Shown here in pieces: positions 59,716 through 62,486 of a stretch of 64,000 nt of DNA. This DNA comes from Paeniglutamicibacter sulfureus (GTDB taxonomy: Bacteria > Actinomycetota > Actinomycetes > Actinomycetales > Micrococcaceae): positions 1,052,149 through 1,116,148 of the forward strand of contig NZ_JAULBL010000002.1 in the NCBI RefSeq assembly GCF_030512175.1, written 5' to 3'. The translations under genes were made by a program, and so were the position numbers. Numbering within the stretch: the stretch's first letter is position 1; every line of letters starts with the position of its first letter. The notes beneath the pieces were generated by a model. It was not told the DNA's origin. It ran no database searches and saw nothing but the letters and a program-made list of their open reading frames with translations.

Positions 59716-59861
59716 TTGCGCGCCCGGAATCCTGTACCCGTGGGTAGCAAGCCGCCGGATTAGGGCCCATAAACATCACTAATTTCCGGGCGCGGTTTGG
59801 GGTTACCGTGGTATCCAGAGCGGTTCGAAATCCGCGAGACCGCCGGTTCGAGGAGTGCATC

Positions 59862-60155
59862 ATGACAGTCACTGTGCCCGTTACCGAATGTTCCGTATCC
59901 AATTGCTCGTTCAACGACCACACCCATTGCGGGGCCTCCGGCATCACCATCGGCGGAAATACTGACCACGCGCAATGCGCGACGTTCATCGACACCGGCG
60001 TGCACGGCGGCCTGCCCAAGATCCTGGCCTCGGTGGGTGCCTGCCAGCGCATGGAATGCACCCACAATGACCACCTGATGTGTGCAGCGGACTCGGTGCG
60101 CGTGGGGCCCGGCGCGGACAATGCGGACTGTCTCACGTACGAACACGGCGCCTGA
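59862..60155 (+). CDS. DUF1540 domain protein, two Cys-rich repeats
   Basis: A 97-residue protein with two copies of a DUF1540 unit: CSVSNCSFNDHTHCGASGIT ... CATF (residues 9-46) and CQRMECTHNDHLMCAADSVR ... CLTY (about 66-92). Each has four cysteines and a His, suggesting metal binding. The family is common in actinobacteria and clostridia and has no known role. GAGGAG precedes the ATG at 59862. Confidence 0.88.
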   Translation: MTVTVPVTECSVSNCSFNDHTHCGASGITIGGNTDHAQCATFIDTGVHGGLPKILASVGACQRMECTHNDHLMCAADSVRVGPGADNADCLTYEHGA

Positions 60156-60281: not shown

Positions 60282-60326
60282 TTGTTGAACAACCTCTTGT
60301 CAAGATTGTTCAACAACCTGTAGTGT
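60282..60326 (+). promoter_or_regulatory. Promoter with two GntR-type operators before the NRAMP-like gene
   Basis: TTGTT-G-AACAA (60282-60292) and TTGTT-C-AACAA (60306-60316) are palindromes with odd centres and are also inverted copies of each other, 24 bases centre to centre. TTGTCA (60297-60302) and TAGTGT (60321-60326) form -35 and -10 with 18 bases between, so one operator is upstream of the -35 and the other lies inside the spacer. The pattern T-GT-N3-AC-A is usual for FadR-type GntR repressors. No such gene is next to it in this window. Confidence 0.72.
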
Positions 60327-60382
60327 ACTTCTCATCGCTCCCACTTGTGACAGCAGTCACCCGCAACCCGATGGATGGAATC

Positions 60383-61600
60383 ATGGCCACTCCTAGCACG
60401 AAACCGAAGCTCAGCACTTCAGCCAGGCGCACCGCAATGCTGGGCGCCATGTTCCTCATGGCAACCAGCGCCATCGGGCCCGGCTTCATCACCCAGACCA
60501 CGGAATTCACGGTCCAGATCGGCGCTTCCTTCGCCTTCGCGATCGTCGTCTCCATCCTGGTGGACATCGCCGTCCAGCTGAACGTGTGGCGCATCATCGG
60601 CGTTTCGGGCCTGCGTGCCCAGGAACTCGGCAACAAGGTCCTCCCCGGCATCGGCTGGGTCCTGGCGGGTCTGGTCTTTATCGGCGGCATGGTCTTCAAT
60701 ATCGGCAACATTGCCGGAACCGGCCTGGGCTTCAACGCCATGATGGGGCTTGACCCCAAGGTCGGCGGCATCATTTCCGCCGCCGTGGCGATCCTGATCT
60801 TCCTCTCCAAGCGCGCGGGCATGGCCCTGGACAAGATCGTGGTGCTGCTCGGCGCCATCATGATCCTGTTGATGCTGTATGTGGCAATCGTCGCCGCACC
60901 TCCGGTGGGCGAGGCCCTGAAGAACGCCGTGCTTCCGGAGAACATCAGCTTCCTGATCATCACCACCCTGATCGGCGGCACCGTGGGCGGCTACATTACC
61001 TACGCCGGTGCCCACCGCATGCTCGACTCCGGCGCCGCCGGCATCGAGAACGTCAAGGACATCACCAAGACCTCCATCTTGAGCATCATCGTCACCGGCA
61101 TCATGCGCGTTCTCCTCTTCCTGGCTATCCTCGGCGTCGTCGCCGGCGGAGCCGTGCTGACCACGAACAACAAGGCCGCCGAGGCCTTCGGCATTGCCGC
61201 CGGCGACATCGGCATGCGGTCCTTCGGCGTGATCCTCTGGGCCGCAGCCCTGACCTCCGTGATCGGCGCCGCGTACACCTCGGTTTCCTTCATCACCAAG
61301 TCCACCACCCCCGAACGCACCCGCAACCTGCTCACCGTCGCCTTCATCGCCGTGTGTGCAGTCATCTACATGTTCCTGGGCCAGGCGCCGCAGACGCTGC
61401 TGATCTTCGCCGGCGCCTTCAACGGCCTGATCCTGCCCGTCGGCTTCGCGGTCCTGCTCTATGCCGCCTGGCGCCGCCGCGACTTGCTGCAGGGCTACGC
61501 GTACCCCAAGTGGCTGCTGATCGTCGGTGTCGTGACCTGGCTGCTGACGCTCTTCCTCGGCTGGAACTCCCTGGCCGGCCTGTCCAAGCTCTGGGCCTAG
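60383..61600 (+). CDS. NRAMP-like transporter without the canonical metal motif (YcsG-like)
   Basis: A 405-residue protein with about eleven spans and the NRAMP fold. The first span reads SAIGPGFITQTTEFTVQIGA, where true metal transporters have D-P-G-N; the metal-binding Asp and Asn are therefore missing. The sixth-span motif (A-x-x-M-P-H in metal transporters) is replaced by YAGAHRML. It may carry a non-metal substrate. In B. subtilis the NRAMP-like ycsG is next to ycsI in an operon with 5-oxoprolinase genes, and here too a YcsI-type gene follows, 70 bases on. The ATG at 60383 is chosen; ATG at 60371 is possible. Confidence 0.85.
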   Translation: MATPSTKPKLSTSARRTAMLGAMFLMATSAIGPGFITQTTEFTVQIGASFAFAIVVSILVDIAVQLNVWRIIGVSGLRAQELGNKVLPGIGWVLAGLVFIGGMVFNIGNIAGTGLGFNAMMGLDPKVGGIISAAVAILIFLSKRAGMALDKIVVLLGAIMILLMLYVAIVAAPPVGEALKNAVLPENISFLIITTLIGGTVGGYITYAGAHRMLDSGAAGIENVKDITKTSILSIIVTGIMRVLLFLAILGVVAGGAVLTTNNKAAEAFGIAAGDIGMRSFGVILWAAALTSVIGAAYTSVSFITKSTTPERTRNLLTVAFIAVCAVIYMFLGQAPQTLLIFAGAFNGLILPVGFAVLLYAAWRRRDLLQGYAYPKWLLIVGVVTWLLTLFLGWNSLAGLSKLWA

Positions 61601-61670
61601 CCCGCCCACCCCACCGCCCCGGCAACACCTTGCCCCACAGGTCCGCCCCTTCGAAAGGACGCCAGCAGAA

Positions 61671-62486
61671 ATGACACCCGCCAATTCTCCAAAGACCGGA
61701 GCAGGGGAGCGCGCAACGCTGTCCCCGGCCCAGGCACGCGAACTGTTCCGCAACGGATTGACGGTTCCGACCGCCGGCTTCTCCCTCGGCTACGCCCAGG
61801 CCAACCTGATCATCGTGCCCAGGGACCAGGCTTTCGACGTGTTGCTCTTCGCCCAGCGCAACCCCAAGTCCTGCCCGATCCTGGGCGTGCTGGACGCGGG
61901 GGAGACCAGTGGGGACCTGCTGAAGGGCGGGGACATCCGCACCGACGTGCCGAAGTACATGGTCTACGAAAACGGCGTGAAGGTCGCCGAGCCCACGGAC
62001 CTGGCCGAGTACTGGCGTGATGACCTCGTGACGTTCATCGTCGGCTGCTCGTTCACCTTCGAGACAGCCCTGATGGAGGGCGGCATCAAGATCGCCCACA
62101 TCGACCAGGGCGTGAATGTGCCGATGTTCAAGACGAACATCCGCAGCGCCTCGGCCGGCTCCATGTCAGGGCCCATGGTGGTGTCGATGCGCCCCATCCC
62201 CGCTTCACAGGTCGCCGATGCCGTGCGCATCACCTCGCGCTACCCGGCGGTGCACGGGGCCCCGGTGCACATCGGCAACCCGGAGGAGCTGGGCATCACG
62301 GACCTCTCGAAGCCGGACTTCGGCGACGCCGTCGAAATCCCGGCCGGGCACATCCCGGTGTTCTGGGCCTGCGGAGTCACGCCGCAGGCCGCGGTCATGG
62401 AATCCAAGCCCGCGCTGGCCATCGGCCACGCGCCGGGGCACATGCTCATCACCGACGCCCGCGACAGCAACTACCTGGTTCCCTAG
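61671..62486 (+). CDS. YcsI/DUF1445 family putative hydro-lyase
   Basis: A 271-residue protein of the DUF1445 family, close to the D-glutamate cyclase (DGLUCY) domain. GLTVPTAGFSLGYAQANLII and FIVGCSFTFETALMEGGI are signatures, as is PVFWACGVTPQAAVMESKPA. The human DGLUCY enzyme turns D-glutamate into 5-oxoproline. With the NRAMP-like gene it forms the YcsG-YcsI pair. The window lacks the pxpA/pxpB/pxpC genes that complete the B. subtilis set. AAAGGAC lies upstream of the ATG. Confidence 0.87.
   Translation: MTPANSPKTGAGERATLSPAQARELFRNGLTVPTAGFSLGYAQANLIIVPRDQAFDVLLFAQRNPKSCPILGVLDAGETSGDLLKGGDIRTDVPKYMVYENGVKVAEPTDLAEYWRDDLVTFIVGCSFTFETALMEGGIKIAHIDQGVNVPMFKTNIRSASAGSMSGPMVVSMRPIPASQVADAVRITSRYPAVHGAPVHIGNPEELGITDLSKPDFGDAVEIPAGHIPVFWACGVTPQAAVMESKPALAIGHAPGHMLITDARDSNYLVP

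Follow-up and report, generated by a model that had tools for sequence, protein, structure and literature searches.

The 64,000-nucleotide stretch of Paeniglutamicibacter sulfureus DNA analysed here (the window; contig NZ_JAULBL010000002.1, positions 1,052,149 to 1,116,148) encodes an NRAMP-fold transporter paired with a YcsI-type protein, and we found that this transporter is a further member of the known YcsG/PxpT family, arranged as a split locus, which very probably imports 5-oxoproline. The strongest new evidence for that role is regulatory, namely copies of an operator with the shared core TTGTTSAACAA, two near-palindromic ones in front of the pair and one more in front of pxpA of a 5-oxoprolinase operon (Table 1). 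Uptake of 5-oxoproline is well supported because of this operator, the linkage to pxpA, the enzyme found next to the transporter gene in a genome without pxpA, and the replacement of the carrier in other genomes. An earlier note, written from the sequence alone, had guessed at a transporter for 5-oxoproline, D-glutamate or a related acid, and the first of these now has strong support from the match to a proven operator, the pxp linkage and the published growth phenotypes of PxpT and YcsG. In published work, relatives of the transporter figure as importers of manganese as well as of 5-oxoproline, and the locus joins these two disagreeing literatures.

The operator is known from Corynebacterium glutamicum, where the PxpR operator agattgttcaacaatct was first predicted in RegPrecise and then proven by reporter mutation, and where PxpR binds 5-oxoproline with a dissociation constant (KD) of 726 nM and is reported not to bind L-glutamate (PMC13274462; here and below, statements on published work refer to the literature passages covered). 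The copies in P. sulfureus were read directly from the sequence. Its 4.55-Mb genome (G000) contains 4 exact copies of the core, 3 of them at the transporter pair or pxpA, compared with 1 place for a reversed-pattern control; the fourth copy (G000:C9:108257-108267; L135:5258) lies near what by reading of open reading frames (ORFs) are apparent cytochrome-c-biogenesis genes, with no visible link to 5-oxoproline. For comparison across relatives we used a set of 84 YcsG loci (L025, L026, L028, L029, L035-L113 and L131), leaving out duplicates and short copies (L002, L005-L021, L027, L031-L034) as well as L136. The core, at no more than one mismatch, was present within 300 bp upstream of YcsG in 71 of the 84 loci, as compared with 4/480 regions preceding other ORFs of these loci. 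When the loci were dereplicated below 80% identity it was found in 34/45, vs 5/900 dinucleotide shuffles, and where pxpA lay on the opposite strand the exact core stood upstream of it in 26/33 cases (one of the 33 being unreadable). The pair and the genes for 5-oxoproline breakdown appear to share one type of regulatory switch. Promoter and terminator scans gave no convincing match.

The 5-oxoprolinase operon itself lies 4-9 kb downstream of the pair on the opposite strand, and comprises pxpA, a fused pxpBC (551 residues), a 580-residue biotin carboxylase carrying a fused biotinyl domain and a GntR/FCD regulator, with about 4 kb holding adenosine deaminase, major facilitator superfamily (MFS)-like and other ORFs in between. 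A lone pair without connection to an oxoprolinase had been considered and was dropped on the finding of pxpA about 8 kb further downstream. PxpA scored over the NF003814 cut-off (356.1 vs 226 bits), and PxpBC passed the Pfam cut-offs for CT_C_D and CT_A_B while falling below those of the NCBIfam PxpB and PxpC models. This linkage is conserved. Matches by tblastn (E<=1e-12) in the 84 loci were obtained to YcsI in 74, to pxpA in 70, to pxpBC in 70, to biotin carboxylase in 51 and to GntR in 66; for several of the loci without pxpA the stretch ends at 8 kb, one genome (G314) being a true exception. The oxoprolinase operon is directly convergent with ycsG-ycsI in the relatives L026, L027, L050 and L052. 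In a class sample of 296 genomes, with a YcsG threshold of E<=1e-40, YcsG was found in 23, PF07286 in 37 and PF03746 in 179; the YcsG genomes contained YcsI in 20/23 cases (Fisher p 4e-18) and pxpA in 22/23 (p 2e-4), and 36/37 YcsI genomes contained pxpA (p 9e-8), these p values being too small at face value because the genomes share ancestry. The three YcsG genomes without YcsI nevertheless had pxpA.

The sole YcsG genome without pxpA, G314, encodes a HyuA-HyuB protein of 1226 residues, from the hydantoinase/oxoprolinase family, adjoining YcsG (L108:5307-8987). Its best solved relative was an N-methylhydantoinase (1288 residues), followed by a chain named 5-oxoprolinase, and it scored over no NCBIfam cut-off, so that it counts as a putative 5-oxoprolinase. 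We also examined the YcsI loci of all 17 YcsI genomes without YcsG (L114-L130), and found that the slot of the transporter is usually filled by MFS-type carriers. Twelve of these loci (L114-L122, L124, L125 and L130) carry an MFS carrier 65-100% identical to that of L114, its nearest relatives being aromatic-acid and sialate symporters, yet under their cut-offs. An MHS-like carrier is present in L126 and L129 and a divergent sodium/solute symporter in L128; in L123 and L127 no carrier was seen by ORF reading. The perfect palindrome GGATCGTTSAACGATCC was present in 10/12 MFS loci (L114-L117, L119-L122, L124 and L125), and in the other two, L118 and L130, with one base changed. The loci with this palindrome hold the MFS carrier, ycsI, pxpA and pxpBC, and derive mostly from large (7-11 Mb) actinobacterial genomes. 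For the MHS-like carrier of L126, an exact copy of the core lies about 180 bp ahead of the likely start. In a genome having neither YcsG nor YcsI (L132), a DUF969-DUF979 pair (L132:2623-4304) with an exact operator site lies beside the 5-oxoprolinase operon, a second site standing ahead of pxpA; this pair is a candidate for a second kind of 5-oxoproline transporter.

The transporter, judged by its sequence, is a member of the YcsG/PxpT family, and the proposal in the earlier note of an NRAMP-fold transporter without metal ligands was borne out by its match to PF01566 Nramp (E=3.8e-22), by an AlphaFold2 model and by alignment to Escherichia coli MntH. Its scores fell short of the two NCBIfam cut-offs for metal transporters (MntH, 30.6 vs 430 bits; Nramp_1, 20.8 vs 50), and neither of the canonical NRAMP marks, DPGN in transmembrane helix (TM) 1 and MPH in TM6, is present; the public annotation label for YcsG-type proteins is nonetheless 'NRAMP family divalent metal transporter'. 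When a family profile of 107 proteins was aligned to E. coli MntH, GPGF fell exactly on the columns of DPGN and GGY on those of MPH, confirming the replacement in the first span and the loss of M-P-H in the sixth that had been noticed before, and the D and E of the MntH TM3 segment TDLAE were Asn in the transporter. The GPGF motif, the next Q, T, F, T, GGY and the TM6 HR were invariant in 107/107 aligned loci, duplicates included. Chance loss or a sequencing error, which we considered, is ruled out because GPGF and GGY are kept in all of these loci. Reading of the ORF gave two alternative starts, an ATG at 60371 and a GTG at 60323. Among 3 Nramp-family matches in the same genome, canonical ones numbered 0/3, two more NRAMP-fold proteins (L001, L003) likewise lacking DPGN and MPH.

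The AlphaFold2 model of the transporter (predicted local distance difference test, pLDDT, 86.6; predicted template modelling score, pTM, 0.86) has an NRAMP-type LeuT fold whose helices break at the GPGF and GGY motifs or next to them (residues 30-32 and 201-203). Its top structure match was the YcsG chain of PDB entry 9a52 (Z 46.9, root-mean-square deviation (rmsd) 3.5, 386 aligned, 46% identity), followed by DraNramp 6d91 (Z 43.2, rmsd 2.8, 386 aligned, 18% identity), and EleNRMT 7qji also matched (Z 35.0, rmsd 3.3, 374 aligned). No solved-structure relative was found by sequence with phmmer or a profile. Entry 9a52 is an integrative model titled YCSG-FABL for which the search output gives no organism, and its YcsG chain is presumably the Bacillus subtilis protein. 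The comparison with B. subtilis YcsG proposed in the earlier note accordingly gave 46-47% identity over 386-397 positions, if that origin is correct. Among named loci the closest were those of Paeniglutamicibacter quisquiliarum and P. psychrophenolicus, whose transporters are 99% and 98% identical, respectively, to that of the window. In a tree of 35 rows, 30 family members grouped together (100/100), with five outgroups on very long branches and the root not placed.

Table 1. Features of the transporter pair and the neighbouring 5-oxoprolinase operon. Coordinates are those of the window unless prefixed; G000 is the P. sulfureus genome and L025 a 19.5-kb stretch of it.
Feature	Coordinates	Strand	Remarks	Basis
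DUF1540 small protein	59808-60155	as pair	directly upstream of operator region	
Operator copy 1, TTGTTGAACAA, PxpR-type core	60282..60292	.	matches C. glutamicum PxpR operator core	
Operator copy 2, TTGTTCAACAA inside AGATTGTTCAACAACCT	60306..60316	.	AGATTGTTCAACAACCT equals 16/17 bases of proven PxpR operator	
YcsG/PxpT-type NRAMP-fold transporter	60383..61600	+	405 residues, ATG 60383, stop at 61600	ORF call, Pfam, NCBIfam, AlphaFold2
GPGF codons, residues 32-35	60476..60487	+	TM1 break, replacing DPGN	family alignment, AlphaFold2 model
NIGN codons, residues 106-109	60698..60709	+	TM3, replacing MntH acidic residues	alignment to MntH
GGY codons, residues 202-204	60986..60994	+	TM6 break, replacing MPH	family alignment, AlphaFold2 model
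YcsI-type protein (DUF1445/PF07286, putative hydro-lyase)	61671..62486	+	271 residues	Pfam, NCBIfam
Cys126 and Cys234 of YcsI	62046-62048 and 62370-62372		invariant	alignment of distinct YcsI sequences
Biotin carboxylase-biotinyl fusion	L025:11518-13260, about window 67369-69111 (beyond window)		5-oxoprolinase operon	
pxpA	G000:C9:1122944-1123657	opposite to pair	about 8-9 kb downstream of pair	
Operator copy 3, core inside GGATTGTTCAACAATCT	L025:15721-15731		16/17 PxpR match, 54 bp upstream of pxpA	

On these grounds the pair would form the uptake arm of a catabolic module for 5-oxoproline (pyroglutamate). The PxpT/YcsG-type carrier, whose substrate and coupling ion we infer, would bring in 5-oxoproline by alternating access, the glycine-rich breaks of TM1 and TM6 probably holding the organic anion at the position that the ion takes in metal-transporting NRAMP proteins. 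Inside the cell, PxpA and the fused PxpBC would open the ring to give L-glutamate, and the GntR protein would presumably act in P. sulfureus as a 5-oxoproline-sensing repressor, binding the TTGTTSAACAA operators of both the pair and pxpA.

Several observations weigh against this assignment. The operator was not found in 13 of the 84 loci (L029, L053, L055, L061, L066, L068, L070, L080, L089, L091, L095, L098 and L131), the carriers that replace the transporter in L128 and L129 have no operator-like site in front of them, and PxpBC narrowly misses some of the curated thresholds (TIGR00724, 228.7 vs 230.2; TIGR00370, 116.8 vs 145.55). A Hydantoinase_B search of six genomes gave one match each in G314, G223 and G000, those of G223 and G000 being either distant from the pair or located on a different contig, and this family alone is no sign of 5-oxoproline use because these two genomes hold a member away from the pair. 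The literature passages covered held no report of labelled 5-oxoproline uptake by any family member, and no purified-protein transport data for either 5-oxoproline or metal. Manganese phenotypes, on the other side, have been described for two relatives. Cellular Mn was raised by Pspac-ycsG and not by Pspac-ycsI in B. subtilis, ycsG being renamed mntG, a mntH mntA ycsG triple mutant could be obtained only when an additional ycsG was supplied, and the promoter of the ycsG operon is a binding target of MntR (PMC10448178). Deletion of mumT in Acinetobacter baumannii led to less cellular Mn, more Mn tolerance and sensitivity to calprotectin, and both the growth lag and the Mn level were complemented (PMC5050338). 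An A. baumannii record, unannotated in this stretch, was found to encode LysR, a GPGF/GGY transporter 52.5% identical to that of the window, PxpA, YcsI, PxpBC and biotin carboxylase, a gene order that matches mumR-T-L-U-H-C exactly, and judged by this layout it is probably the mum operon; the connection of ycsG to the operon in A. baumannii had been noted previously (PMC10448178).

These phenotypes bear on the statement in the earlier note that metal transport is unlikely, which follows from the lost ligands and is contested by the Mn phenotypes of YcsG (PMC10448178) and MumT (PMC5050338). The note had also named manganese or iron transport as what would overturn its proposal, and in relatives such transport is arguably represented by the published Mn2+ phenotypes and the A. 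baumannii GPGF/GGY operon. Because the ligands are lost, metal transport by the known NRAMP mechanism is improbable, and some real Mn2+ transport, alone or with 5-oxoproline, seems rather unlikely. The two sets of phenotypes would be compatible if the carrier moved 5-oxoproline and Mn2+ together, in a complex or with the metal serving as the coupling ion; TM1 and TM6, however, show no metal ligand set and co-dependence is not reported in the literature passages covered, and we regard this solution as decidedly unlikely. A manganese importer of the MntG/MumT type supplying Mn2+ to the pathway enzymes, the 5-oxoproline phenotypes being polar or indirect, would agree with the Mn phenotypes and the NRAMP fold, with an earlier ycsG 5-oxoproline phenotype for which polarity on pxpBC was not ruled out (PMC10448178), and with EleNRMT, which moves Mn2+ and Mg2+ without the canonical metal-binding motif (PMC12873925). 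The canonical metal ligands and the TM3 acids are nevertheless all replaced, the operator belongs to a 5-oxoproline sensor type, and in most of the genomes that have YcsI and lack YcsG the slot is taken by organic-solute-type carriers. Moreover, C. glutamicum without pxpT did not grow on 5-oxoproline and was restored by pxpT in a 2026 study whose authors could not exclude metal transport (PMC13274462), and polarity is no explanation there since pxpT alone complements the deletion; this importer we hold to be improbable. An Rfam search of the stretch L025 returned nothing at gathering thresholds, and thus no Mn riboswitch there, which counts as weak evidence.

The partner of the transporter had been assigned to the D-glutamate cyclase family, and YcsI does belong to PF07286 D-Glu_cyclase (E=1.1e-66, 223.5 vs 25 bits) and exceeds the cut-off of NCBIfam NF003969 'putative hydro-lyase' (403.6 vs 324 bits); the enzyme name, however, is a family label, and PF07286 was the only Pfam domain in the 271 residues, DUF4392, the second domain of the assayed DGLUCY, being missing. 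The mouse enzyme assayed as D-glutamate cyclase was the whole two-domain protein, DUF1445 plus DUF4392, its racemase homology was placed in DUF4392 by its authors, and an archaeal relative of that domain is reported as a probable Mn-dependent phosphatase. Because DGLUCY was assayed whole and the relative of DUF4392 is a probable phosphatase, the D-glutamate cyclase label on PF07286 is not domain-resolved. The solved relatives of YcsI, 2pif and 3db9, both come from structural genomics, and a structure search with its model (pLDDT 76.3) gave only these two among rows with Z>8, with no racemase or other known enzyme fold in those rows. Since YcsI accompanies the 5-oxoprolinase genes whichever carrier is present, its substrate is most likely 5-oxoproline or glutamate. 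It might act on 5-oxoproline or its open form by cyclising D-glutamate or, as a guess based on the conservation of Cys126 and Cys234 in 93/93 distinct aligned YcsI sequences, as a two-cysteine racemase interconverting the enantiomers of 5-oxoproline. Import of D-glutamate by the carrier, with cyclisation by YcsI to 5-oxo-D-proline, is in keeping with the family name and the mouse DGLUCY assay and is yet highly improbable, as the sensor of the operator is reported to bind 5-oxoproline and not L-glutamate (D-glutamate being unmentioned in the main text of PMC13274462), 3/23 YcsG genomes lack YcsI and still have pxpA, and the second domain of the mouse protein is missing here; no report of a stand-alone YcsI performing this conversion was met among the literature passages covered.

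Some further loci extend the picture of the 5-oxoprolinase module. The presence of biotin carboxylase in 51 of the 84 YcsG loci suggests a biotin-dependent form of 5-oxoprolinase. In another genome of the same genus (G012, L030), pxpA and pxpBC are kept and ycsG and ycsI were not found, the L030 locus giving no match to biotin carboxylase, gntR or the operator. The run transporter, pxpA, ycsI, pxpBC, biotin carboxylase was found on plasmids of two Rhizobium strains, Roseateles (a record flagged as unverified organism), Paracoccus and Klebsiella, one plasmid stretch, unannotated in PLSDB, being read by homology matches. The cassette of a Thioclava plasmid contains no ycsI, a Lactiplantibacillus plasmid has genes identical in kind in a different order, and a Fusobacterium stretch has pxpA and pxpBC with no ycsI match. 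In Klebsiella a transporter homologue occurs on 93 plasmid records (L086), and in one of these, the record that was read, an IS1-family transposase is found close to the whole cassette of transporter, pxpA, ycsI, pxpBC and biotin carboxylase.

Taken together, the operator and gene-replacement evidence ties the conserved job of the family to 5-oxoproline. Among the matches listed and the literature passages covered, no paper was met that connects the lost motifs with 5-oxoproline. Set against the Mn phenotypes published for relatives, the evidence makes the contradiction between the two claims testable. It is possible, although doubtful, that the whole GPGF/GGY branch consists of 5-oxoproline carriers, including MntG and MumT, with Mn effects that are indirect or proceed via a 5-oxoproline-metal complex, that the 'urea' operon of A. 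baumannii is a 5-oxoproline operon, and that YcsI is a two-cysteine enzyme interconverting 5-oxoproline enantiomers. A family role in 5-oxoproline import would in itself give the NRAMP fold a branch of organic-acid carriers, with a bearing on the origin of metal selectivity.

Compared with known systems, the transporter has the LeuT/NRAMP fold in common with DraNramp and EleNRMT and differs from them in that these transport metal ions, canonical members retaining DPGN and MPH. B. subtilis YcsG (MntG) is alike in its ycsG-ycsI neighbours and differs in being under the regulators KipR, TnrA, CcpA, MntR and AhrC (PMC10448178); that the same pair occurs in the B. subtilis ycs/kip operon, as the earlier note had stated, we take from that report and not from B. 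subtilis DNA. The one Bacillaceae locus examined (L080) had no PxpR-type site upstream. A preprint places MntG, called a hypothesized Mn importer, in a 'G-motif 3' group of Nramp-related proteins (PMC12873925). The A. baumannii locus LysR-T-L-U-H-C, by its layout probably the mum operon, likewise encodes a GPGF/GGY transporter, and differs in having a LysR regulator, not GntR, and in the published view of mum as a Mn importer accompanied by urea enzymes. Mouse and human DGLUCY share DUF1445/PF07286 with YcsI and differ by the additional DUF4392. C. glutamicum PxpT (cg1142), finally, is an NRAMP-family member of the APC superfamily encoded beside 5-oxoprolinase genes and a GntR regulator (PMC13274462), and can be likened to the window transporter by this description and by the operator, which is identical at 16/17 positions. 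There, pxpT is the first gene of pxpTABC, whereas in P. sulfureus the transporter gene forms a pair with ycsI, set apart by roughly 4 kb of other genes from the opposite-strand operon of pxpA, pxpBC, biotin carboxylase/biotin carboxyl carrier protein and gntR.

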